Shown: piece after piece, positions 4,100 through 47,793 of the stretch
How the letters are laid out: every line of letters starts with the position of its first letter
Position numbering within the stretch: the first letter of the stretch is position 1
Assembly: GCF_001592045.1 (NCBI RefSeq)
Contig: NZ_BCWB01000017.1
Coordinates: 1 to 64,000, forward strand
Length of the DNA: 64,000 nt
Reading direction: 5' to 3'
Origin: Thermobifida fusca NBRC 14071 = JCM 3263
GTDB lineage: Bacteria; Actinomycetota; Actinomycetes; Streptosporangiales; Streptosporangiaceae
The notes under the pieces: generated by a model
The model's database searches: none
What the model saw: only the letters and a program-made list of their open reading frames with translations
Told to the model about the DNA's origin: nothing
Program-made: the position numbers and the translations under genes

Positions 4100-5122
4100 T
4101 CACCCGGATTCCCGCACCATCAAATGGGTCTCCAGCACCAGCCGCACCGGTTCGGTGGTCTCCCCGGTGATCCGGTCCACGAGCAGCCGGGCCATCTCCC
4201 GGCCCATCAGCTCGGTGGGCTGGTTGACGCTGGTCATCGGCGGTTCGGCGTGCTCGGCTACGGTCGAGTCGTCGTAGCCGACCACCGCCACATCCTCGGG
4301 CACGCGGCGGCCCGAAGCACGCAGCACCCGCAGCGCGGCCAGCCCCATCAAGTCGGAGGCCGCGAACACGGCGTCCACGTCGGGGGCCCGATCCAGCAGC
4401 TCCCGCATCGCGGCCACCCCGCTGTCGTAGGTGAAGTCACCGTAGCTCACCAGCGTCTCGTCGTACTCCATCCCCGCGGCGAGCAGTGCTTCGCGATACC
4501 CCTGGAGGCGTTCCACACCAGCGACCATGTCCTGCGGGCCCGCGATCGTAGCGATCCGCCGGTGCCCGGTCTCGATCAGCCGCTGGGTGGCCTGGCGTCC
4601 CCCGCCGATGTTGTCGATATCGACATAGGACACCTGTTCTTCGGGGACGCCGAGCGGACGGCCGCCGTAGACGTACGGCACCCCGGCCTCGTCCAGCATC
4701 TGCGGCAGCGGGTCGTCGCGGTGGAGCGACAGCAGGAGGACCCCGTCGACGTGCTGTCCGGCCAGGTAGCCGCCCAGCCGCTCATGCTCTATCCCGGAGC
4801 GGCCCGTGGCCAGGACGAACTGGAATCCCCGTTCGGACAGAGCAACCCCCACGCCGAGCACGATCCCGGCATAGAAGGGTTCGGCGAAGAGCTTCTGGTT
4901 GTTTTCCGACACCACCAGGGCTACGGTGTCGGTACGTCGGGTGACCAGGGTGCGGGCTGCGCGGTTCGGCACGTAGCCCAGCTCTTTGATCGCCCGCTTC
5001 ACGGCCTCTCGCGTGGCCGGACTGACCTGGTCAGAGCCGTTGATCACCCGAGACACCGTGCCTCGGCCGACCCCGGCCAACGCGGCCACCATCTCTAGTG
5101 TCGGACGTCGCCGACGCTCCAT
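4100..5122 (-). CDS. celR: LacI-family transcriptional repressor CelR
   Basis: 340-residue LacI/GalR regulator. An N-terminal helix-turn-helix (PTLEMVAALAGVGRGTVSRV) is followed by the hinge helix (NRAARTLV) and a periplasmic-binding-protein-like sensor domain. In T. fusca CelR represses cellulase and cellobiose-uptake genes by binding TGGGAGCGCTCCCA, and cellobiose releases it. Such boxes are present at 10167 and 44715. The gene lies 108 bp downstream of bglC on the same strand and can be co-transcribed with cebEFG-bglC or have its own promoter. Length is normal for the family. Confidence 0.92.
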   Translation of the reverse strand: MERRRRPTLEMVAALAGVGRGTVSRVINGSDQVSPATREAVKRAIKELGYVPNRAARTLVTRRTDTVALVVSENNQKLFAEPFYAGIVLGVGVALSERGFQFVLATGRSGIEHERLGGYLAGQHVDGVLLLSLHRDDPLPQMLDEAGVPYVYGGRPLGVPEEQVSYVDIDNIGGGRQATQRLIETGHRRIATIAGPQDMVAGVERLQGYREALLAAGMEYDETLVSYGDFTYDSGVAAMRELLDRAPDVDAVFAASDLMGLAALRVLRASGRRVPEDVAVVGYDDSTVAEHAEPPMTSVNQPTELMGREMARLLVDRITGETTEPVRLVLETHLMVRESG

Positions 5123-10166: not shown

Positions 10167-10180
10167 TGGGAGCGCTCCCA
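10167..10180. promoter_or_regulatory. CelR operator of cebE
   Basis: Perfect palindrome TGGGAGCGCTCCCA, identical to the known CelR box, 60 bp upstream of the cebE start codon. A possible -35 (TTGACG on the minus strand, in the 10207-10215 region) lies upstream, without a clear -10. Confidence 0.95.
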
Positions 10181-29228: not shown

Positions 29229-31721
29229 TCAGACCGGGATGCTGTCCTGCGCGGCGCGCAGCGCGTCGTTGACGGTGCGCAGCACGGGCGGCTGGACCAC
29301 CTGGGCAGGGTCGAGGTGGGCACCGCCGCGCACCGTGAACGTGTGCGACTCTCCCGGCAGGAGGGTGACCAGCATGTCATCCGCCTCGGCCCCCGGATCG
29401 AGGCGGTCCGCGAACAGGGAGAGGTCGCGCAGCAGGCTCCGCGCCGTCACGGTCACGCACAGGTCCGCGCCACGCGGCACGACACGGGTGTCGTACTCCG
29501 GCGCCGGATAGGCGATCTCGCGGTCCTCAGCGAAGAACCAGTACGCTCGGCGTGCCCCCGTGTCCGCGGTAATCAATTCCCGGGTCGCATCCCCGGGGCG
29601 CGCCACCTCGGCGGGCAGCGGCACCCGGACGGCGCCGCGGGCAGGCACAGTGAACGGGGCATCGGCCGCGGCCAGCACCGTGCCGTCCAAGGCCCGCCGG
29701 GCCAGGTGCGCGGTCCCGGTCCACTCCCGGTTGCTGTCGTTGGCCACGACGAGGACCAGGCCGTCGCCGTCAGGCTGCACCGTGGCCAGCCGCTCGGCGT
29801 AGACCGCCCGCAGGGCGTACCACAGCGGTTTGCGCCGGCCTTCGCCGTCCACAGCCGACCACGACGTCACCGGCCAGCAGTCGTTGAGCTGCCAGACCAC
29901 GCTCCCCGTGCACCGGGGCCACTGGGCGCGGAAGTGCTCGATGCCCAGAGTAATCGCGCGCGCCTGGTTGACCTGGGTCAGATAGTGCCAGTCGTCGAAG
30001 TCGGCAGGGTTGCCGAAGTGCGGGGCCAGGCCGCGGGCGAGCTTGCCGTTGCCGTCGACCGCCTTCTGGTGGTGCAGCATGCCCGGCGAATCCGGTCGCA
30101 GCTCCTCTCCGGGCAGGGCGGAGCGCAGCGTGGCGTAGGTGGGCGGGGCCTGGAACCCGAACTCGGCCACGAACCGGGGCCGGTAGTTGCGGTAGGCGGT
30201 GTAGTCCACCTCGTTCCACACGTCCCAGATGTGGATGGAGGCGTACCGCGGGTCGTTGGGGTGGATGTCCGGCACCCCGGAGTACGGGCTGCCCGGCCAG
30301 TAGGGGCGCGTAGGGTCGACCTCGGCGACGATCCGCGGCAGCAGCTCCAGGTAGTAGCCTTCGCCCCAGCTCCGGCCCGCCAGCTCCTCCTTCCAGCCCC
30401 AGTCCCAGTAGCCCCAGATGTTCTCGTTGTTGCCGTTCCACAGCACCAGGCTGGGGTAGGGGGCGAGCCGGGCCACCACTTCGCGGGCCTCGGCCTCGAC
30501 CTCTTCAGTGATCGGCGGCTCCTCGGGGTAGGCGGCGCAGGCGAACAGGAAGTCCTGCCAGACGAGGATGCCGCGCTCGTCGCACAGCTCGTAGAAGTCC
30601 TCGCTCTCGTAGCGGCCGCCGCCCCACACCCGCAGCAGGTTCATGTTGGCCGCGACCGCCTGGTCGATCCGCGCGGCGTAGCGGTCGCGCCCCACCCGGC
30701 TCACAAAACAGTCGTCGGGAATCCAGTTGGCGCCCTTGACGAGGACGGGCACCCCGTTGACGACGATGGTGAACCGGCGGCCGTCCTCGTCGACACCGGT
30801 GTCGAGCTCGACCGTGCGGAACCCGATCCGGCGCTGCCAGGTGTCCAGTTCCTCCCCGTGAGCGGCCAGATCGACGCGCAGGTCGTAGAGCGGCTGGTCA
30901 CCGTAGCCGCGGGGCCACCAGAGGTCGGGGTCGGGGACGGTGACCTCCAGTTCGGTACGGCACACCCCGGCGGGGACGGCGATTGACTGCTCCCGGTCGG
31001 CGATCCGGACGCGCACGACCAGCTCGGTGTCCTCCCCGTGCTCGCTCCGCTCCACCTCCACCCGCACCAGGACGCGGCCCTCCAGGCTGCCGTCGTGGGT
31101 GCGGGCCACGGTGATCAGGGGGACGACCTGGGCTAGGCGGGCCGTGTGCCACGCGTGCACGTGGATCGGCCGCCAGATCCCCGAGGTGACGAGGGTGGGG
31201 CCCCAGTCCCAGCCGAAGTTGCAGGCCATCTTGCGGATGAACTGGAACGGCTCGGGGTAGGCGTTGGGCCGGTCCCCGAGCTTGTCGCGGAGCGCCGTGG
31301 CGTAGCTGTAGGGGGAGGCGAACTCGACCCTCAGTTCGTTAGTGCCGTCTCGGAGCGCCCGGCGCAGGTCGAAACGGTAGGAGCGGTGCATATTGCGGCT
31401 CTGGCCGACTTCCGTACCGTTGAGGAACACCGTGGCCACGGTGTCCAGTCCGGCGCATTCCAGGTCGATCCGTTCTGCCTCAGCCAGTGCGGTGGCGTCG
31501 AAGGTGGTCGTGTAGCTCCACTGGGTGCGGCCGATCCAGCCGAGCTCGGTCTCGTTGCGACCTTGGTAAGGGTCGGGAATGAGGTTCGCCGCCATGAGGT
31601 CGGTGTGCACGCATCCCGGCACGGTCGCCGGTATCCCCGCAGGGCCGATCTCCACTGGAACCTCGGCGGGATCGTCCGCACGGAGGACCCAGTTCTCGCG
31701 CAGTTCGATGCGCACTGCCAT
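29229..31721 (-). CDS. GH2 beta-mannosidase
   Basis: 830-residue cytoplasmic glycoside hydrolase of family 2 that removes terminal beta-mannose from manno-oligosaccharides. Order: N-terminal jelly-roll (to about 170, with NFGWDWGP), immunoglobulin-like domain, TIM barrel with acid/base Glu in WNGNNENIWG near 430 and nucleophile Glu in FVAEFGFQ near 520, then C-terminal sandwich domains. The ATG at 31721 has GGAGA six bases upstream; a further in-frame GTG at 31751 is less likely. It lies downstream of the Opp-type importer with its own promoter and ManR-type operators. Confidence 0.9.
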   Translation of the reverse strand: MAVRIELRENWVLRADDPAEVPVEIGPAGIPATVPGCVHTDLMAANLIPDPYQGRNETELGWIGRTQWSYTTTFDATALAEAERIDLECAGLDTVATVFLNGTEVGQSRNMHRSYRFDLRRALRDGTNELRVEFASPYSYATALRDKLGDRPNAYPEPFQFIRKMACNFGWDWGPTLVTSGIWRPIHVHAWHTARLAQVVPLITVARTHDGSLEGRVLVRVEVERSEHGEDTELVVRVRIADREQSIAVPAGVCRTELEVTVPDPDLWWPRGYGDQPLYDLRVDLAAHGEELDTWQRRIGFRTVELDTGVDEDGRRFTIVVNGVPVLVKGANWIPDDCFVSRVGRDRYAARIDQAVAANMNLLRVWGGGRYESEDFYELCDERGILVWQDFLFACAAYPEEPPITEEVEAEAREVVARLAPYPSLVLWNGNNENIWGYWDWGWKEELAGRSWGEGYYLELLPRIVAEVDPTRPYWPGSPYSGVPDIHPNDPRYASIHIWDVWNEVDYTAYRNYRPRFVAEFGFQAPPTYATLRSALPGEELRPDSPGMLHHQKAVDGNGKLARGLAPHFGNPADFDDWHYLTQVNQARAITLGIEHFRAQWPRCTGSVVWQLNDCWPVTSWSAVDGEGRRKPLWYALRAVYAERLATVQPDGDGLVLVVANDSNREWTGTAHLARRALDGTVLAAADAPFTVPARGAVRVPLPAEVARPGDATRELITADTGARRAYWFFAEDREIAYPAPEYDTRVVPRGADLCVTVTARSLLRDLSLFADRLDPGAEADDMLVTLLPGESHTFTVRGGAHLDPAQVVQPPVLRTVNDALRAAQDSIPV

Positions 31722-31854
31722 GGCGTCTCCACAGGTGAAGCGGTGTTGCACTTCAAGGGTGCGACCCGGGCGCCTGGAGGAGGGAGGGGGCGTAACCCGG
31801 TGCCGGGTCGCACCCGACTCTTACGACGGTCGTCGGTGTTCCGCCGCGTTCCCC

Positions 31855-31883
31855 ATGAGACTAGTAAACCGGTTCAGTGTCAA
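31855..31883 (-). promoter_or_regulatory. Beta-mannosidase promoter
   Basis: Minus-strand TTGACA (31878-31883) and TCTCAT (31855-31860) separated by 17 bp. The spacer contains the CCGGTT operator, so a bound repressor would block RNA polymerase. Confidence 0.7.
31865..31876. promoter_or_regulatory. ManR-type operator, beta-mannosidase, proximal
   Basis: TAAACCGGTTCA, one of seven related palindromes in the mannan loci, located between -35 and -10 of the promoter. Confidence 0.8.
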
Positions 31884-32012: not shown

Positions 32013-32945
32013 CTACACCGCGGCCCGACGGTGGAAAGGCTGCACGTAGTGCCCCTCGGAGACCTGCACCAGCTCGCTGGGGACCTCCTGGCCCTCCTCA
32101 AGGTGGTAGGGATGCGTGGAGGTATCGGCGGCCTCCTTGGCACGGAGCTCGGCCTCGACCTCCTCCCACTTCTTGTGGAACTGCGGCACCGAGGCGAACA
32201 GCTTCTTCGTGTAGGGGTGGCGCGGATCGCTGAACACCTTCTCGGTGACCCCGCGCTCCACGATCTCACCCTTGTAGAGGATGACCGTCTGGTCGCTGAT
32301 GTAGTTGCCCAGCGCCAAGTCGTGGGTGACGAACAGGATGCCCATCCCCCGCGCCTTCAGGTCGGCCAACAGGTTGAGCACGTCGATCCGCGTCGAAGCG
32401 TCCAACATGCTGATCACCTCGTCGGCCACCAGATAGTCGATGTCCAGCAGCAGCGCCCGGGCGAGGAGCATGCGCTGCAACTGGCCGCCGCTGAGCTGGT
32501 GCGGGTACTTGCCCAACACCTGGTTCGGGTCGAGCCGCACCACCTTCAGCGCCTCGGCCACCCTGTCCTGCCACTCGCTCTGGGAGACCTCCGGGTAGTA
32601 CTCCTCACGGATCATCGAGAAGACCCGGTCGGCCTTGAAAATCGGGTTGTAGCTGCTGAAAGGGTCCTGGAAGACGCCCTGCACCTTGCGGTAGTAGTCC
32701 TTCAGCGCCCGGTGCCCGCGCAGCGTGGACACGTCGATGCCGTCGCAGGTGATCTTCCCCTTGCTCACCGACGCGATCCGCAGCGCCATCTTGCCGAGAG
32801 TGCTCTTGCCGCTGCCGCTCTCACCGATCAGGGACACTACCTCGCCGGGACGCACCTCGAAGCTGGCGTCCCGGACTGCAGTGAACTCTCCCCCGCCGAA
32901 GGCGCCCACCTTGTAGACCTTGGTGACCCGGTCGAATTTCAGCAT
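32013..32945 (-). CDS. Oligosaccharide/oligopeptide ABC transporter ATPase, OppF type
   Basis: 310-residue ATPase of the importer with Walker A GESGSGKST, signature LSGGQLQR and Walker B YLVADEVISMLD. The last deviates from the usual DEPTSALD. Switch His is in LFVTHDLALG. Second of the two ATPases energising the permease pair. Starts 4 bp after the OppD-type gene. Last gene of the cluster before the separately promoted beta-mannosidase. Confidence 0.88.
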   Translation of the reverse strand: MLKFDRVTKVYKVGAFGGGEFTAVRDASFEVRPGEVVSLIGESGSGKSTLGKMALRIASVSKGKITCDGIDVSTLRGHRALKDYYRKVQGVFQDPFSSYNPIFKADRVFSMIREEYYPEVSQSEWQDRVAEALKVVRLDPNQVLGKYPHQLSGGQLQRMLLARALLLDIDYLVADEVISMLDASTRIDVLNLLADLKARGMGILFVTHDLALGNYISDQTVILYKGEIVERGVTEKVFSDPRHPYTKKLFASVPQFHKKWEEVEAELRAKEAADTSTHPYHLEEGQEVPSELVQVSEGHYVQPFHRRAAV

Positions 32946-32949
32946 CTGA

Positions 32950-33900
32950 TCACTCGGCCTTCCAACAGGCGACGTGGTGGTCGCTTTCCACTTCCACGAA
33001 CGGCGGCTGCTCCAGACACTGCTTGTCGGCCAGCGGGCAGCGATCCCGGAAGCGACACCCCTGCGGGGGATTGAGGAGACCGGGCGGGCTCCCCGGAATA
33101 CCGCTCAACCGCTTGTCCTCGTACTTGACGCCCACCTCGGGAAGCGAGTCCAGCAGCATCTTGGTGTAAGGATGCTTGGGCATCTCGATGATGGTCTTGG
33201 CGGACGCCTTCTCCGCAAGCCGTCCGCCGTACATCACCATGATGGTGTCCGCGATCTGGTACACCAGCGAGATGTCGTGCGTCACGACGATCATGCTCTT
33301 GACGAACTCGCGGTCGCGGAACTCCACCAGGGTTTCAGCGACAGCCCGCTGGGTGGAGACGTCCAGCGCCGACGTCACCTCGTCGGCGATCAGCAGCGAC
33401 GGGTTGAGCAGCGTCGAGATCACCATGACCGTGCGCTGCTTCATCCCACCCGACAGCTCCAGCGGGTAGCGGTCCAGCACGTCCCGCTCCAGCTCCACCA
33501 GCTCCAGACGGCGGTGCAGCTCGTCGCGGACGTCCCGGAACCGCACCCCCCGCGACTCCAGCAGCTCGGCGATCATCTTGCCGATCTTGCGGGTCGGGTT
33601 CATCGCGCTCATCGCGTACTGCGGGATGATCGAGACCCGCTTGTAGCGGAACTCGTCCATGGCCCGGTCATCCCAGATCGGCATCTCGTCGCCGTCGAGG
33701 GTGACGCTGCCGCCGATGTAGCGCATCCGCCCGTCCAGCCGGATCAGGCTCTTGCTGAGTGTGGACTTGCCGCTGCCTGACTCTCCCGCCAGTCCCATGA
33801 TCTCGCCGTCGGCGACAGTGAACGTGGGACCGTCGAGAGCGCGGACGTCACCACGCAAGGTGCGATAGTAGACCCGCAGGTCCGAGACTTCGAGGGTCAC
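32950..33900 (-). CDS. Oligosaccharide/oligopeptide ABC transporter ATPase, OppD type
   Basis: 316-residue ATPase. Walker A GESGSGKST, signature ELSGGMKQR, Walker B LLIADEVTSALD, switch His in VVTHDISL. The C-terminal extension has the GIPGSPPGLLNPPQGCRFRDRC region with four cysteines typical of OppD/DppD proteins, where they can bind an iron-sulfur cluster. Three bp separate it from the upstream permease gene. Confidence 0.88.
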   Translation of the reverse strand: MTLEVSDLRVYYRTLRGDVRALDGPTFTVADGEIMGLAGESGSGKSTLSKSLIRLDGRMRYIGGSVTLDGDEMPIWDDRAMDEFRYKRVSIIPQYAMSAMNPTRKIGKMIAELLESRGVRFRDVRDELHRRLELVELERDVLDRYPLELSGGMKQRTVMVISTLLNPSLLIADEVTSALDVSTQRAVAETLVEFRDREFVKSMIVVTHDISLVYQIADTIMVMYGGRLAEKASAKTIIEMPKHPYTKMLLDSLPEVGVKYEDKRLSGIPGSPPGLLNPPQGCRFRDRCPLADKQCLEQPPFVEVESDHHVACWKAE

Positions 33901-33903
33901 CTG

Positions 33904-34818
33904 CTACATCTCCCTCAGCTTGGGGTTGAAGACCTCGTCCAGCCCCACGTTCATGACGTACATCGAGCCGACAATCGCGGTGATGCCCAGGCCCGGAGGC
34001 ACGAACCACCACCACACGCCCAACTGCAGGGCGCCCCACTTGACGGCCTGGTGCATGATCAGCCCCAGCGACATGCCGTCGTTCGGGCCCAGTCCCACGA
34101 AGTCCAGTCCTGCGGCGGCCAGCACAGCGCCGCCGAAGAGCAGGATGAACGTCATGAACAGGTAGGAACTCATGTTCGGCGCGATGTCGCGGACGATGAT
34201 CTTCCATGGCCGGACACCGCTCAGGCGGGCCAGGTCGACGAAGTCGCGCGAGCTCAGCGACAGCGCCTGGGAGCGGACCGCACGCGCAGCCCACGGCCAG
34301 GAGGTCATGCCGATGAAGAAGGACTGCGTCACCACGCCATAGGAGTCCACGTAGGCGGCGATGATGAACAGCACCGCCAGGGTGGGCAGGACCAGGACGA
34401 CGTTGGTCAGCATGTTGAGGACCTCGTCGATCCAGCCGCCCTTGTATCCGGCGACGAAGCCGATCGTCATGCCGATGACGGCTGCGATCCCGCCGCCGAG
34501 GAAGCCGACGAGGAACGTCGAGCGGATGCCGTAGACGAACTGGGTGAAGAGGTCCTGGCCGAACTGCGTCGTCCCGAACCAGTGCTCTGCCGACGGCGGC
34601 AGCAGCGGAGGCGCGTACCGCTCGCCGGGGGTGTGCTCCAAGAACGGCGGGACGACCAGGCCCACCAGCAGGAACAGGAGCACAATCGACAGGCCGACGA
34701 CCAGCTTGGGATTGCGCAGTGCGAAGTAGAGGGCTTCCAGCCGGGGCGCCTTCGGTGTGGCGACCGCCGGCTCTTCCGGAGCCGTGGTCGGGTCGGGCAG
34801 CGGCTGCGCGGCTGTCAT
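33904..34818 (-). CDS. Opp-type ABC transporter permease, OppC type
   Basis: 304-residue permease with N-terminal membrane helix (VVGLSIVLLFLLVGLVVPPFL), a periplasmic loop (ERYAPPLLPPSAEHWFGTTQFGQDLF, the HPLGTD-like motif of this family) and about five further helices. The EAA-type loop is near LARLSGVRPWKIIVRDI. Overlaps the OppB-type gene by 4 bp. Confidence 0.88.
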   Translation of the reverse strand: MTAAQPLPDPTTAPEEPAVATPKAPRLEALYFALRNPKLVVGLSIVLLFLLVGLVVPPFLEHTPGERYAPPLLPPSAEHWFGTTQFGQDLFTQFVYGIRSTFLVGFLGGGIAAVIGMTIGFVAGYKGGWIDEVLNMLTNVVLVLPTLAVLFIIAAYVDSYGVVTQSFFIGMTSWPWAARAVRSQALSLSSRDFVDLARLSGVRPWKIIVRDIAPNMSSYLFMTFILLFGGAVLAAAGLDFVGLGPNDGMSLGLIMHQAVKWGALQLGVWWWFVPPGLGITAIVGSMYVMNVGLDEVFNPKLREM

Positions 34819-35810
34819 TTGGCTCCTCCCTGCATCTGGACGCGGACACGCGGGTCGACCAGGGCGTAGACGATGTCGATGATGAAGTTAGCGATCAGTA
34901 CGCCGATGACGATGAACAGGAAGGTTCCCTGCAGCAGGAAGAAGTCCTGGTTCTGGATCGCCTGCAGGATCAGGTAGCCCAGGCCCTGGTAGGAGAAGAC
35001 GATTTCGGTGAGCAGCGCGCCCGCGACCACCGTGCCCAACTGCACGGCCAGGCCGGTGAGCTGGGGCAGCATGGCGTTACGGAAAGCGTACTTGCGGATC
35101 AAGCGACGCGGCGCGCCCAGCGCCTGCAGGTAGTTGGAGTACTCGGACTCCAGCTCGTAGATGATCATGTTCCGCATGCCGATGGCCCAGCCGCCCAGGG
35201 CGACCAGGAACAGCGACAGGAACGGCAGGAACCAGTGCTCCAGCAGGCTGGAGATGAACGTCCAAGTGAACGCAGGCTGGAGGGAGAGGCCGTACGATCC
35301 TGCGGCGGGGAACAGGCCCGCGACGATGCCGAGGCTCCAGGCCAGCAGGAGCGCCAGCCACATGTAGGGAGTAGCGGTGAGGATGTAGCCGATGGGCAGG
35401 ATCGTGTTGTCCAGCCACTTGCTCCGCGCGGCGTAGGCGCCGAACCAGTTGCCGACGAGCCAGCTCAGGATAATCGAGGGCAGCAGGAGTCCCAGACTGT
35501 ATGGGACCGCTCCCAAAATCAGGTCAATAACAGGCGTGGGGAAGTTCCAGATGCTAATCCCCAGGTCGCCCTGGAACAGCGAGACCCAGAAGTTGAGGTA
35601 CTGCTGCCAGAGCGGCAGGTCCAGGCCGAACATCTTGTTGAAGTACCCGTACAACGCTTCCGCTGCGCCAGCGTCGTTGAGCGAAGCACGGGCGAGCCGG
35701 CTCTTGATGGGGTCACCGGGCATCAGCCGCGGGATCATCCAGTTGATGGTGACTGCTGCAAAGAAGGTCAGCGCGTAGACAAAAATCTTGCGGCCGAAGT
35801 ATTTACGCAA
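34815..35810 (-). CDS. Opp-type ABC transporter permease, OppB type
   Basis: 331-residue permease starting MRKYFGRKIFVYALTF with the family MPGDP motif at about residue 32 and about six helices. The EAA-type loop reads YLQALGAPRRLIRKYAFRNAMLP. It forms the channel with the OppC-type permease. A CelR-like palindrome lies within its coding sequence at 35502-35515. Confidence 0.88.
   Translation of the reverse strand: MRKYFGRKIFVYALTFFAAVTINWMIPRLMPGDPIKSRLARASLNDAGAAEALYGYFNKMFGLDLPLWQQYLNFWVSLFQGDLGISIWNFPTPVIDLILGAVPYSLGLLLPSIILSWLVGNWFGAYAARSKWLDNTILPIGYILTATPYMWLALLLAWSLGIVAGLFPAAGSYGLSLQPAFTWTFISSLLEHWFLPFLSLFLVALGGWAIGMRNMIIYELESEYSNYLQALGAPRRLIRKYAFRNAMLPQLTGLAVQLGTVVAGALLTEIVFSYQGLGYLILQAIQNQDFFLLQGTFLFIVIGVLIANFIIDIVYALVDPRVRVQMQGGAK
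35502..35515. promoter_or_regulatory. CelR-like box inside the OppB-type gene
   Basis: TGGGACCGCTCCCA differs from the perfect CelR operator at one position. It is intragenic, and function is uncertain. Confidence 0.4.
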
Positions 35811-35926: not shown

Positions 35927-37645
35927 CTACTCTTCCTCCGAGGCGGGCTCCAGTTCGGTCAGCATCAGGATGCTGCCGAGCTGGAAGTAGCCGCGCCAGG
36001 TCGAGGGCAGGTAGTTGTTGTCGGACTCGCTGGAGGGCCAGTTGGTCCACACCGAGTTGTTGTACTGCGCCCACAGGCCGTTGTACCAGAGCGGGATGAC
36101 CGGCATCTCCTCGAGCTGGATCTTCTGGATCTTGCCCGCCACCTCGCGGATCTTCTCGGTGTCCTCAACCGGGATGCCGTCGAGTTCACCCACCAGCTCC
36201 CAGGCCTCTTCGTTCTCGTAGCGGCCGAAGTTGACCGTAGTCTGCTGGTCCTGGACCGGGAGGCGGAAGATGTAGTCGTAGTAGGTCCACGGCGTGTTGC
36301 TGATCTGGCGCTCGTTGTTGATCACCAGGTCGAACTCGCCGCTGTTGCGCTGGTCCACCAGGGCGTTGAACTCGGGGAAGTCAGTGGTGACCTTGATACC
36401 GACTTCGCTCGCGCTCTCGCTGATGACCCGGGCGGCCTCCATCCAGTCGGTCCAGCCGCTGGGAACGATGAGGGTCAGATCGATCGGCTCACCGTCAGGG
36501 GTCTCGACGAAGCCGTCGTTGTCGGTGTCCTCGTAGCCGGCTTCCTCAAGGATCTTCTTGGCGACCTTCGGGTCACGCGGGGTGGCGTGCTTCTCGACCA
36601 CCTCGGTGTCGATGTAGTCGTCCCAGACAGGGAGCAGACCGGTGGGGTCGGCCTCGGTGACCAGGCCGCCGTAGACGTTGTTGACGATCTCGTCCATGTC
36701 GATGGAGGCCGAGAGCGCCTTGCGGAACTCAGGGTCGTCCATCGGCTTCTTGGTGGTGTTGGGCACCAGCCACGCGGTGTTGGCCGCGAGCATGTAGGGC
36801 TCTTCAGGGAAGTAGGTCTGGACCTGGTAGCCGCCCTGGACGAGCTGCGCGATACCGGGCAGGAAGTTGTTGTTGATGTCGATGTTGCCCTGGAGCACCT
36901 GGCTCAGCGCGGCCTCGTTGCTGGTGTTGACCACGTCGACGATGTACGTGGGCTTGACCTCGTGGCCGAGCGCCTCAGTGGCCCACCAGTCCTCGTTCTT
37001 CTTCCAGACCTGGCGGTCCTGGTCGTGGGTCTCGTAGAGGTACGGGCCGGTGCCGACGGGGTCCTCGTTGGCGCCGGTGAGGATCTCCTCCTCGGAGCGC
37101 TCCGACCAGATGTGTTCGGGCACAATGGCGTTGAAGTACAGCCAGTTGGCCCACTGCGCGTAGTTGGCCTTGGAGAAGGTGAACTTGACCGTGTAGTCGT
37201 CGACGGCCTCAGCGCTCTCGAGCCACTCCCACAGCGAGTGGTAGGAGGAGCCCTCGTACTTGCCGATCTCGACGGTGAAGACCACGTCGTCGGCGGTGAA
37301 GTCTTCGCCGTCGCTCCACTTGACGCCCTGGCGGAGCTTCAGCTCGTAGGTCTTGTCGTCGACCCACTCGCCGCTCTCCGCAAGCCAGGGGATGTATTCT
37401 CCAGTCTGCGGCTCGTAGAGGAACAGGGTCTCGTAGACCAGACCCACCGTTCCGGTGGCGTAGTTACCCGTGTCGAGCGGGTTCCACGTGCTCGGCGGCC
37501 CCCACTGGGTACCACCGGTGTAGAGGGTCTCCGCACGGGGGTAGTCCCCTGTCGCTCCACCGTCGCCCTCTGTGTCACCCCCGCAGGATGTGGCCAGCAA
37601 GCTGACCAGTGCGAGGGGGATCAGAAACCTGTAGCGGTTTCGCAT
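35927..37645 (-). CDS. Family-5 (OppA/DppA type) substrate-binding lipoprotein, probably for manno-oligosaccharides
   Basis: 572-residue lipoprotein: signal peptide with lipobox (LLATSC), then a large SBP_bac_5 fold with WSDGEDFTADDVVFTVE and the AALSQVLQGNIDIN segment typical of OppA/DppA. In several bacteria such receptors bind oligosaccharides, and the setting here (beta-mannosidase, LacI regulator, mannanase with the same operators) points to mannan fragments. The ATG at 37645 is preceded by GGAGGAGAG about 10 bases upstream and is preferred to 37666. First gene of the importer operon. Confidence 0.87.
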   Translation of the reverse strand: MRNRYRFLIPLALVSLLATSCGGDTEGDGGATGDYPRAETLYTGGTQWGPPSTWNPLDTGNYATGTVGLVYETLFLYEPQTGEYIPWLAESGEWVDDKTYELKLRQGVKWSDGEDFTADDVVFTVEIGKYEGSSYHSLWEWLESAEAVDDYTVKFTFSKANYAQWANWLYFNAIVPEHIWSERSEEEILTGANEDPVGTGPYLYETHDQDRQVWKKNEDWWATEALGHEVKPTYIVDVVNTSNEAALSQVLQGNIDINNNFLPGIAQLVQGGYQVQTYFPEEPYMLAANTAWLVPNTTKKPMDDPEFRKALSASIDMDEIVNNVYGGLVTEADPTGLLPVWDDYIDTEVVEKHATPRDPKVAKKILEEAGYEDTDNDGFVETPDGEPIDLTLIVPSGWTDWMEAARVISESASEVGIKVTTDFPEFNALVDQRNSGEFDLVINNERQISNTPWTYYDYIFRLPVQDQQTTVNFGRYENEEAWELVGELDGIPVEDTEKIREVAGKIQKIQLEEMPVIPLWYNGLWAQYNNSVWTNWPSSESDNNYLPSTWRGYFQLGSILMLTELEPASEEE

Positions 37646-37699
37646 CGTTCTTCTTCTCTCCTCCATCTGTTACCGACGCGTGGCCCGGCAACAGTTGTT

Positions 37700-37713
37700 T
37701 GGGAGCGTTCCCA
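37700..37713. promoter_or_regulatory. CelR-like box in the leader of the mannan importer operon
   Basis: TGGGAGCGTTCCCA, one mismatch from the perfect CelR box and flanked by TT/AA, making an 18-bp near-palindrome at 37698-37715. It lies 55 bp upstream of the start codon, matching the distances at cebE and cel5A. Confidence 0.75.
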
Positions 37714-37829
37714 AACGAAGGCCCCCCGTAGCCTTTCGTCTGGTCACGCGGGTTTTTGCCAGCAGATGCGGCTGTTGCTCTCCCCTCCCGCCCGTTCCGC
37801 CACACAGATCACAGACGGGAGTGAACGAA

Positions 37830-37858
37830 AGAACATCAATAAACCGGTTTAGCGTCAA
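37830..37858 (-). promoter_or_regulatory. Mannan importer promoter
   Basis: Minus-strand TTGACG (37853-37858) followed at 17 bp by a weak -10 (TGTTCT, 37830-37835). The operator at 37840 fills the spacer, the same layout as the beta-mannosidase promoter. The predicted leader is about 180 nt. Confidence 0.6.
37840..37851. promoter_or_regulatory. ManR-type operator 1 of the importer operon
   Basis: Perfect palindrome TAAACCGGTTTA inside the promoter spacer. Confidence 0.85.
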
Positions 37859-37875
37859 GACTGTGTTATGAAAAC

Positions 37876-37887
37876 TAAACCGGTTTA
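37876..37887. promoter_or_regulatory. ManR-type operator 2 of the importer operon
   Basis: Second identical copy TAAACCGGTTTA, 36 bp from the first, suggesting cooperative binding by a dimer pair or tetramer. Confidence 0.85.
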
Positions 37888-37993
37888 CGCGGGACGTGCT
37901 GTTTGCACAGCAAACCCGCCCACCGCACCGTACACACCTGACTGGATTACAACGAACTTACTTCACCTTGGTCAAGCGGAGGTCAAGAAGTGA

Positions 37994-39010
37994 TCAGAAT
38001 GCAGCGGGGCCCGTACTTGCCCGCGGGATGAGCCGGCTCGGCGGAGTCTGCCGGGAACGGGGAGTACGCCCTTCAATCACTTCCATCAGCAAAGACGCGG
38101 CAATTCTCCCGTGCTGGGTGACCTCGCGCCCCACCGCAGTCAGCGCAGGGCGGATGACCTGGCAGATCCGGGAATCGTCCCAGGCCACGATCGACAGCCG
38201 CTCCGGAACAGGGACCCCCATCTCCTGCGCCGCGCCCAACGCCGCCACTGCCATCAAATCGTTGTCAAAAACAAGTGCGCTCGGCGGGTTCTCCGCAGAA
38301 AGCAACTCGCGAGTAATATCCGCGGCGCGGGATTCCACATAGTCCGCGTGAACGATCTCTGCCCGAGTCAACCCCACTTCGCGCGCCACTTTGGCGAATG
38401 CCTGCGACCGAACTTCGGTGTGCACGAACTCCGCCGGACCCGCCACCCGGACAATCCTCCGGTGGCCCAAATCGGCCAAATACCGGATCACTTCCCCCAT
38501 GGCTTCCGCGTCGTCCGTCCACGCGCACGGCAGGCCCTGGGTGTGCTCGGGACCGCCGACCACGACCGCGGGCAGCCCCAGCTCCTTCACAAACGGCAGT
38601 CGAGGGTCGTCACGGCGCAAATCCACCAGCAGCACCCCGTCGACCCGGCGCTCCGCATGCCAGCGCTGGTACGTGGCCGTCTCCACGTCCCGGTCCTCGG
38701 CAGAGCGCATCAACAAAGAGAACGGGCTGCCGTCGAGTTCGAGCTGGATCCCCCCGATCAACTGCATGAAGAACGGCTCGGCGGCCAGCGTCTTGGCCGG
38801 ACGGTCCACCACCATGCCGATCGCCCAGGCCCGACCGTCCGACAGGGAACGCGCCGCACTGCTCGGCGCCCAGCCCAACTGCTCGGCGATGTCCAGGATG
38901 CGGCGCCGCGTGGCGTCCGAGACTCCAGGCCGACCATTCAGCGCGTAGGAGACCGCTCCTTTGGAAACGCCTGCGGCCTTGGCGATATCCACGATCGTCG
39001 GACGCCTCAT
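37994..39010 (-). CDS. LacI-family regulator of the mannan genes (ManR, inferred)
   Basis: 338-residue LacI/GalR repressor: helix-turn-helix PTIVDIAKAAGVSKGAVSYAL, hinge PSSAARSLS, and a sugar-sensor domain. The ATG at 39010 is preceded by GGGGAG and gives the standard LacI start MRRPTIVDIA; the frame to 39064 would add 18 residues reading through the operator. A TGAACCGGTTCA palindrome 24 bp upstream implies autoregulation. It lies upstream of the importer operon on the same strand. Target set is inferred from the shared palindrome. Confidence 0.88.
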   Translation of the reverse strand: MRRPTIVDIAKAAGVSKGAVSYALNGRPGVSDATRRRILDIAEQLGWAPSSAARSLSDGRAWAIGMVVDRPAKTLAAEPFFMQLIGGIQLELDGSPFSLLMRSAEDRDVETATYQRWHAERRVDGVLLVDLRRDDPRLPFVKELGLPAVVVGGPEHTQGLPCAWTDDAEAMGEVIRYLADLGHRRIVRVAGPAEFVHTEVRSQAFAKVAREVGLTRAEIVHADYVESRAADITRELLSAENPPSALVFDNDLMAVAALGAAQEMGVPVPERLSIVAWDDSRICQVIRPALTAVGREVTQHGRIAASLLMEVIEGRTPRSRQTPPSRLIPRASTGPAAF

Positions 39011-39033
39011 CCTGTCTCCCCGCGCTGGCTCAA

Positions 39034-39045
39034 TGAACCGGTTCA
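39034..39045. promoter_or_regulatory. ManR-type operator of manR
   Basis: Perfect palindrome TGAACCGGTTCA just upstream of the regulator's start codon. Confidence 0.8.
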
Positions 39046-39321
39046 CTAAAGGTGAGGTTAGCAACGGCCCTAGGTCTCTACCGTCACCGGAGGAGTGTTC
39101 CCCCGCGTCCGGGACCTCCTGCCGTCCCCATGCCTCTGGCCAGGCAGGAGCAGCCGCCCCTGGTGTTCAGAAACGTTCCGGTAGCACAGGTGCGGCACAT
39201 TTTCCACCATTGCCCCTGTCCTGTTCCGTTTCCCCGAAGCAGAGGCGTACCCTGGACGCTTGTGTCTACCCTGTTCTCCACGCTTGCGCGGCGACCACTC
39301 CACCGCCGTAAAGGGGTGCCC
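39046..39321. other. Intergenic region between manR and the VOC gene
   Basis: With the manR operator this divergent gap is about 310 bp and holds no gene. A possible plus-strand promoter lies near 39228-39255, ahead of the VOC gene. Confidence 0.35.
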
Positions 39322-44714: not shown

Positions 44715-44728
44715 TGGGAGCGCTCCCA
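44715..44728. promoter_or_regulatory. CelR operator of cel5A
   Basis: Perfect TGGGAGCGCTCCCA palindrome (flanked by TA/TA), 36 bp upstream of the start codon. Confidence 0.95.
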
Positions 44729-46275: not shown

Positions 46276-47637
46276 TCAGCGAGCGGTGCAGCTCAGCGTC
46301 AGCGAGCTAGGCGCGTCGCCCGAGCCGATGAAGCCGAACGTGGCGGACTGTCCCGCACCCAGCTGGCCGTTGTAGGACAGGTTGCTGGCCGTCACCGTGC
46401 TCGTGCCGCTGAAGCTGGCGTTCCAGCCGTGGGCCACGCTCTGGCCGCCGGGGAAGGTCCAGCTCACCTGCCACGAGGAGATCGCGGAGTCGCCCGCGGT
46501 GACCGTCACCTCGCCCTGGAAGCCGCCGCCCCAGCTGCCGATGGTGGCGTAGGTGGCGGTGCAGTCGCCCTCCGCGGGAGGCGGAGTCGGAGTCGGCTCC
46601 TCGGTCGGCTCTTCCGTCGGCTCCTCGGTCGGGCCCGGCTGGGAGCCGCCGAAGATCGTGGCCTCCTTGGCCGTGCTCGCAATACCGTTAGGGCCGTAGA
46701 AGATCCGCTCGCCCCACGGGCTCAGGTTGTCGCCGTCGAAGTTGTACACCATGTCGAGGTACTCGACTCCGCCGCCGTTGCCGCTCCACGACCAGCCGAT
46801 GTAGCCCAGCTTGAGCCGCTCGGCCTCGGCCATGATCGTGTCCTCGTCGGGGTTGCCGTCGGAGTGGTCGTGGCCGAACTCGCCGATGATGAGCGGCAGG
46901 CCCGCGTTGACGAAGTGCTCCAGGTAGCTGGTGATCGTGGACGCCTGGGAGTAGACGCCGTACATGTGGATCGAGAAGACGGTGTTGCCGGTGGGGTCGC
47001 TGGCGTACACCTGGTCGGCGTTGTTCCGCATGGTGTTCGTCCAGTCCTGGCCCCAGTTGGGGGCGTCCACCACGAGGGTGTGCTCGAATCCGGCGGCGCG
47101 CAGCCGCTGGATGGCGGCGGAGGTGTCCGACGCCCAGCGGGCGACGGTCGCGGAGTCGTTGCCGTAGGGCTCGTTGCCGATGTTGATGAGGACATAGTCC
47201 TCCTCGCCCTGGAGCACGCTCTTCAGCTCGATCCAGTAGTCGACGGCCTGGTCGAGCGTGGAGGCCCCGCTCTGCTCGCCGTAGCCGGTGGTGTCGTGCA
47301 CCTCCAGCATGCAGATAAGGCGGTTCTGCTTGCACAGGGAGATGACGTTGGCGACGTCAGAAGGACCGTTCTTGCTCCACCGGACACCGTTGCTCAGCAC
47401 CACCCGGACGGTGTTGGCGCCGTGCGACTTGATGTCGGCGAACGCCTGGGTGTGCTGGGGGTACCAGTTGTGGGGGTGGCTGACGCCACGGATGATGAAC
47501 TCCTGGCCGTTGGCCTCATACAGGCGGCCGTTCTTGACGTGGAGCCCGGTGGCCGCGTTCGCCGGCTGCGTGAGGGCAAAGACGGACGCCAGCAGCGCAA
47601 GGACGGTTGCTGCGGCGACCGCGAGACGTTTTCTCAT
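46276..47637 (-). CDS. man5A: Endo-beta-1,4-mannanase Man5A, GH5-CBM2
   Basis: 453-residue secreted mannanase. Signal peptide to about residue 28 (QPANA), mature start ATGLHVKNG, GH5 barrel with acid/base Glu in INIGNEPYG and nucleophile Glu in IIGEFGHD, a Thr/Glu/Pro repeat linker (TEEPTEEPTEEPTP), and a C-terminal CBM2. Domain order is the reverse of Cel5A. Attacks mannan and glucomannan backbones. The ATG at 47637 is chosen for its GAGGAAG site; 47649 is possible. Matches the T. fusca KW3 mannanase as I recall it. Confidence 0.96.
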   Translation of the reverse strand: MRKRLAVAAATVLALLASVFALTQPANAATGLHVKNGRLYEANGQEFIIRGVSHPHNWYPQHTQAFADIKSHGANTVRVVLSNGVRWSKNGPSDVANVISLCKQNRLICMLEVHDTTGYGEQSGASTLDQAVDYWIELKSVLQGEEDYVLINIGNEPYGNDSATVARWASDTSAAIQRLRAAGFEHTLVVDAPNWGQDWTNTMRNNADQVYASDPTGNTVFSIHMYGVYSQASTITSYLEHFVNAGLPLIIGEFGHDHSDGNPDEDTIMAEAERLKLGYIGWSWSGNGGGVEYLDMVYNFDGDNLSPWGERIFYGPNGIASTAKEATIFGGSQPGPTEEPTEEPTEEPTPTPPPAEGDCTATYATIGSWGGGFQGEVTVTAGDSAISSWQVSWTFPGGQSVAHGWNASFSGTSTVTASNLSYNGQLGAGQSATFGFIGSGDAPSSLTLSCTAR

Positions 47638-47731
47638 GGTCTTCCTCATCCAGGACTCTGCCGGTAGGCAGGGATGTACACGAGTGGATTACGCAGCCCC
47701 GCTTGCTTTTCCCTCCTGAGGCGCCGACGCC

Positions 47732-47781: not shown

Positions 47782-47793
47782 TGAACCGGTTTT
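47782..47793. promoter_or_regulatory. ManR-type operator of man5A, distal
   Basis: TGAACCGGTTTT, 24 bp from the proximal copy. Confidence 0.78.

Follow-up and report, generated by a model that had tools for sequence, protein, structure and literature searches.

A candidate CelR operator in the leader of a beta-mannoside importer points to joint control by CelR and ManR in Thermobifida fusca

The leader of a beta-mannoside importer operon in Thermobifida fusca NBRC 14071 contains a 14-nt word that differs by one base from the CelR operator. We read this box as a working CelR operator that would form a second repressor gate, AND-like together with the local repressor ManR, and we give this reading a probability of roughly 0.72. 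Mannan-sugar uptake would then probably be gated by both CelR and ManR. Such joint control had been suggested by a sequence-only reading of the window (the whole stretch of 64,000 nucleotides analyzed here), and it draws support from the genome-wide context of CelR-type sites, from conservation across species and from a comparison of recognition helices. If true, it links the uptake of mannan sugars by a biomass degrader to its cellulose regulon. For Streptomyces, cross-talk of a CelR-type repressor with mannan use has already been published.

The box (TGGGAGCGTTCCCA) has one base changed relative to the CelR operator (TGGGAGCGCTCCCA), as the sequence-only reading had described, and forms the center of an 18-nt near-palindrome with one imperfect pair (TTTGGGAGCGTTCCCAAA, 37698-37715). 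It has the marks of a candidate CelR/CebR operator: it is a 14-nt palindrome with one change, it is noncoding and upstream of a polysaccharide-use gene, the genome encodes a CelR with the recognition helix of the family, and the box is conserved at the importer in relatives. Counting places 54 nt between the box and the ATG of the minus-strand importer gene (37645), close to the 55 bp given earlier; the distances of the perfect boxes before cebE and cel5A, given earlier as 60 and 36 bp, likewise needed little correction (Table 1). Words with at most one mismatch to the CelR operator occur four times in the window, compared with a mean of 0.06 and a maximum of two in 100 dinucleotide shuffles, so the earlier estimate that a few hundredths of such near matches are expected was right. 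With up to three mismatches, the count (12 versus 7.5 expected) hardly exceeds chance. A leader riboswitch was considered and rejected, as no Rfam match at gathering score was found in 37400-39200.

Table 1. Coordinates of the genes and of the known and candidate regulatory features within the window.
Feature	Position	Strand	Remarks
CelR, LacI family	4100..5122	-	Helix AGVGRGTVSRVIN
Perfect CelR box before cebE	10167..10180	-	59 nt from cebE ATG (10107)
GH2 family gene, beta-mannosidase by context	29229..31751	-	ManR-type box 31865-31876
Importer genes dppB, dppC, dppD and dppF (two permeases, two ATPases)	32013..35810	-	
Importer binding protein (SBP_bac_5)	35927..37645	-	Nearest solved chains include a named mannoside ABC sugar-binding protein
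CelR-type operator (candidate)	37700..37713	-	Sense strand TGGGAACGCTCCCA, one mismatch; sequence-based
Inferred core promoter	37830..37858	-	TTGACG 37858-37853, 17-nt spacer, poor -10 TGTTCT 37835-37830; read by eye
ManR-type operator TAAACCGGTTTA	37840..37851	-	Within spacer after -35 box
Second ManR-type operator TAAACCGGTTTA	37876..37887	-	36 bp upstream of first
LacI-family regulator, called ManR after the sequence-only reading	37994..39010	-	Helix AGVSKGAVSYALN; ManR-type box 39034-39045 just before start
Perfect CelR box before cel5A (CBM2-GH5)	44715..44728	+	35 nt from cel5A ATG (44764)
GH5-CBM2 gene (Man5A)	46276..47649	-	Mannanase partly by context; ManR-type box 47782-47793

The minus-strand gene order runs from the LacI regulator through the SBP_bac_5 importer protein, two permeases and two ATPases to the GH2 gene. 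This set, in which an SBP_bac_5 protein, a pair of permeases and a pair of oligopeptide-type ATPases are encoded next to GH2, suggests an importer of the family 5 mannoside type. The binding protein is 91% identical to its Thermobifida cellulosilytica counterpart. Its closest structure matches are PDB 4pfu, 1vr5 and 4pft (one of them named mannoside-binding), presumably Thermotoga proteins, followed by 2o7i, which we take to be a cellobiose binder. Compared by sequence, the first three are family 5 binding proteins like the importer protein, with E near 1e-147.

The two ManR-type operators announced by the sequence-only reading are indeed present just upstream of the candidate CelR box. Additional ManR-type boxes stand before GH2, before the start of the regulator itself and before the GH5-CBM2 gene (which we take to be the Man5A mannanase), and they outline a small mannan regulon. 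From their position and their repetition at mannan genes we infer that these boxes are read by the local LacI regulator. Across the whole genome the exact core AACCGGTTTA is found in three places, two at the importer and one before GH2 (reversed control, one); looser variants were sought within the window. Among the mannan genes with ManR-type boxes here, the importer is the only one with a CelR box. That CelR controls all of these mannan genes in this genome was considered and rejected: in the 350 bp upstream of GH2, Man5A and manR, no CelR-like word comes closer than six, six and five mismatches, respectively.

When the importer leaders of six species, that of the window among them, are aligned, a single block stands out as strongly conserved; it consists of a ManR box, a spacer, TTGACG, a second ManR box and TGATGTTCTTTCGTTCAC. 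The core AACCGGTTTA is found in all six species at the ManR-type operator farther from the importer gene and in five of them at the nearer one, where T. cellulosilytica has TAAATCGGTTTG. We infer that TTGACG is a -35 box with a ManR operator in the spacer behind it, so that transcription would begin close to 37823 and the CelR box would fall at roughly +110. A like layout, with TTGACA, precedes GH2. A consensus scan of 37600-38050 found neither promoter nor terminator, and because the -10 is also poor, the core promoter, and hence the roadblock geometry, is a reading by eye. At about 110 nt downstream of the presumed ManR promoter, the candidate CelR box resembles a further obstacle to the same transcript rather than an alternative promoter.

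In the mechanism that we propose, ManR bound at its two operators, one of them inside the core-promoter spacer, would block initiation, and CelR bound about 110 nt further downstream would block the elongating polymerase on the same transcript as a roadblock. Mannan sugars would release ManR, and cellobiose, perhaps also mannobiose, would release CelR. The importer would be fully on only once both repressors are gone, and the GH2 and mannanase genes in this genome would answer to ManR alone. If so, the importer detects cellulose and mannan together and the mannan enzymes in this genome do not. AND-like control of the importer fits the co-occurrence of mannan and cellulose in the plant cell wall.

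We searched the whole genome (3.64 Mb in 82 contigs) for CelR-type words, with the reversed word as control. Twenty words are either perfect (11) or carry one change (nine), compared with none for the control. With up to two mismatches the numbers are 53 and 14; the 33 two-mismatch words are thus unreliable, being common in the control as well. Thirteen of the 20 sites precede genes that encode sugar importers or enzymes for cellulose or hemicellulose, namely GH5, GH6 (three sites, two genes), GH9 (two genes), GH10, GH48 (two sites), AA10 (two genes), cebE and the mannan importer; some of these 13 boxes lie within the longest possible open reading frame, and start codons were checked for part of them. 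The other seven have no discernible cellulose or sugar-uptake gene alongside. They lie 119 bp from an MFS gene (C1), 280 bp from a FAD oxidase gene (C38), where a PfkB-type gene begins (C63), in open reading frames without Pfam match (C11 and C14:2315), at a place without clear target (C12) and inside dppB. For T. fusca, both perfect and one-mismatch CelR sites before glycosyl hydrolases have been reported (Anderson 2012, PMC3377646). The operator family and the regulator are the same here, but the target is a mannoside importer that also carries the sites of its own local repressor.

Conservation was assessed in the leaders of 80 out of 167 confirmed relatives and of two Thermobifida, 82 in all and 83 with the window (L100, on the same contig as L015, was omitted from both counts). 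A CelR-type box with at most one mismatch is present in 55 of the 82 leaders listed; the best of 209 other palindromes with permuted half-sites reached one. Because the leaders are related, these counts are not independent, and on a tree built by a quick method the state of the box changes nine times, each change being a gain or a loss. Among the 55 box-bearing loci, a ManR-like gene is found in 46, all four transporter genes in 51 and GH2 within the fetched stretch in 35. Across the 83 leaders listed, CelR-type boxes occur in 56 and ManR-type boxes in 74; both types are present in 51, only the CelR type in five, only the ManR type in 23 and neither in four. The ManR leader motif was composed after the leaders had been viewed, which makes its count of 74 among 83 a descriptive one; none of the 83 matched the reversed motif. 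Two Streptomyces leaders with a two-mismatch palindrome (L042 and L045) were scored as lacking the box.

The CelR box is absent from 27 of the 82 leaders listed, including those of all nine Microbispora and all three Microtetraspora. The genomes of these 12 hold 8-15 perfect boxes each, and at least one perfect CelR box occurs in 45 of the 50 genomes counted (50 of the 80). Since the box is missing from importers in genomes with a CelR regulon, CelR input appears to be common but not universal.

The order of the two sites also varies. Of the two sites in the 51 leaders that have both, the CelR box is the downstream one in 34 (Thermobifida, Nocardiopsis, Herbidospora, Nonomuraea, Planobispora, Sphaerisporangium, Streptosporangium and kin) and the upstream one in 17 (Streptomyces, Asanoa and Allorhizocola). 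In the Streptomyces leaders a TTGAC word follows the CelR box after a few bases, and four of the 34 leaders of the downstream type (L046, L058, L077 and L087) have an extra CelR-like word upstream too. Because the two orders are opposite, the two-repressor leader was probably reached more than once. If true, this is a simple two-repressor design that recurs across actinobacteria. The broader claim, that a leader with CelR and ManR sites holds generally in this mannoside importer family and lets the importer sense the coincidence of cellulose and mannan, is one that we advance tentatively and at less than even odds. A recurring two-operator importer leader with opposite orders was not found in the literature searched.

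What releases CelR may be more than a cellulose signal. If mannobiose is a ligand of CelR alongside cellobiose, one importer substrate could free both repressors and sharpen the response to beta-1,4 disaccharides. This alternative, which is compatible with the two-repressor reading, we consider a real possibility although somewhat less probable than its opposite. A 2025 paper (PMC12772271, with Ohashi 2021 as its reference 8) names the identified ligands of SsCebR from Streptomyces sp. SirexAA-E, which are cellobiose and mannobiose, so that "cellulose plus mannan" may partly be one shared disaccharide signal. The order of the structure matches of the binding protein, 4pfu, 1vr5 and 4pft with a named mannoside-binding protein among them and 2o7i next, points the same way. 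However, mannobiose is reported for a Streptomyces CebR, and the best matches in three Streptomyces genomes are 55% identical to the CelR studied here. Whether the ligand of the CelR type is cellobiose, mannobiose or both decides the meaning of "cellulose induction" on mixed plant material. The same Streptomyces system resembles ours in that a CelR-type repressor is tied to mannan use: the targets of SsCebR include the mannanase SACTE_2347 (PMC12772271). It differs in that the target stated there is a secreted mannanase, whereas here it is an importer that in addition carries the sites of a second LacI-type repressor.

The box in Thermobifida could also be a fading remnant, with a perfect CelR site in ancestral leaders and a copy that is now weak or idle. 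The affinity of one-mismatch sites may be reduced (PMC3377646). In all four Thermobifida the box, at -68 to -71, has one mismatch (TGGGAACGCTCCCA in three and TGGAAGCGCTCCCA in one); in Actinorugispora and Nocardiopsis ansamitocini, from the two other genera that stand nearest, the aligned position shows three mismatches, and six Nocardiopsis, six Herbidospora and others have a perfect box in their importer leaders. Actinorugispora and N. ansamitocini have seven and eight perfect boxes, respectively, elsewhere in the genome, and their CelR helix is unchanged. Against decay, three of the four Thermobifida keep the identical one-mismatch word in the same place amid divergent surroundings. Moreover, in this genome and in two other Thermobifida (two of the three others were compared), the double-stranded word of the importer box recurs at a distance of 39 nt upstream of an AA10 LPMO gene, with the changed half on the opposite side relative to the gene when compared with the importer. 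The one-base variant is thus kept at a cellulose gene, and we regard a remnant as unlikely.

The AA10 LPMO gene is itself split over two contigs in this genome, C7 and C8 (L117 end, L161 start).

We return to the reading of the box as a CelR operator and ask which protein would bind it. The helix of the local LacI regulator (SKGAVSY) differs from that of CelR (GRGTVSR), which makes CelR the likely reader of the importer box. That the box is ManR's own site was ruled out, as helix and operator both differ. In the 30 genomes searched, AGVGRGTVSR is found in 28 of the 30 best CelR matches, followed by VIN in 26 and VVN in two; the exceptions are one Streptomyces (GRGTASR, L146) and Thermoflexus (SRSTVSR, L149). 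The 82 loci comprise 13 without a LacI match, four with a CelR-like one and 65 with ManR-type neighbors. For 56 of these neighbors the helix was read by script, and all are SKGAVSY or SKVAVSY; L036 has STGAVSY in the printed text, and eight are unread. With these helices, the local regulator was rejected as reader of the box in the other genomes too.

A different LacI-family regulator as reader is improbable, at odds well below those of a remnant. The site given for Streptomyces scabiei CebR2, TGGGAACGTTCCCA (PMC9953190), contains TGGGAAC, the half that is changed here, so this half-site is reportedly used by a related repressor. In this genome, however, the next CelR-like proteins among the matches listed are 37-38% identical to CelR, and the ManR helix differs.

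A further one-mismatch CelR-type word lies at 35502-35515, inside dppB of the importer operon, and matches as well as the leader box. Two other Thermobifida retain this dppB word; in T. cellulosilytica it is broken, and the four other genera compared do not have it. A one-mismatch match by itself is thus no proof of function, but the position and sequence of the leader box are conserved and the same loci hold 59 boxes in 28.5 kb of leaders versus six in 1.03 Mb elsewhere, which leaves chance a hardly credible explanation.

CebR sites are reported genus-wide in Streptomyces (Book 2016, PMC4898821), and the passages on CebR sites in that paper do not name the mannan importer operon. We found no published naming of the CelR site of the T. 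fusca importer, although published site tables may list it; the relevant parts of PMC8914351 and PMC3978015 added nothing on this operon. Four leaders of related importers, from Thermoflexus and a Chloroflexota bin (L069, L078, L081 and L093), have a perfect CelR-type box shortly downstream of a TTGACA/TATAAA-like promoter; at three of these loci the fetched stretch also contains a CelR-like gene.
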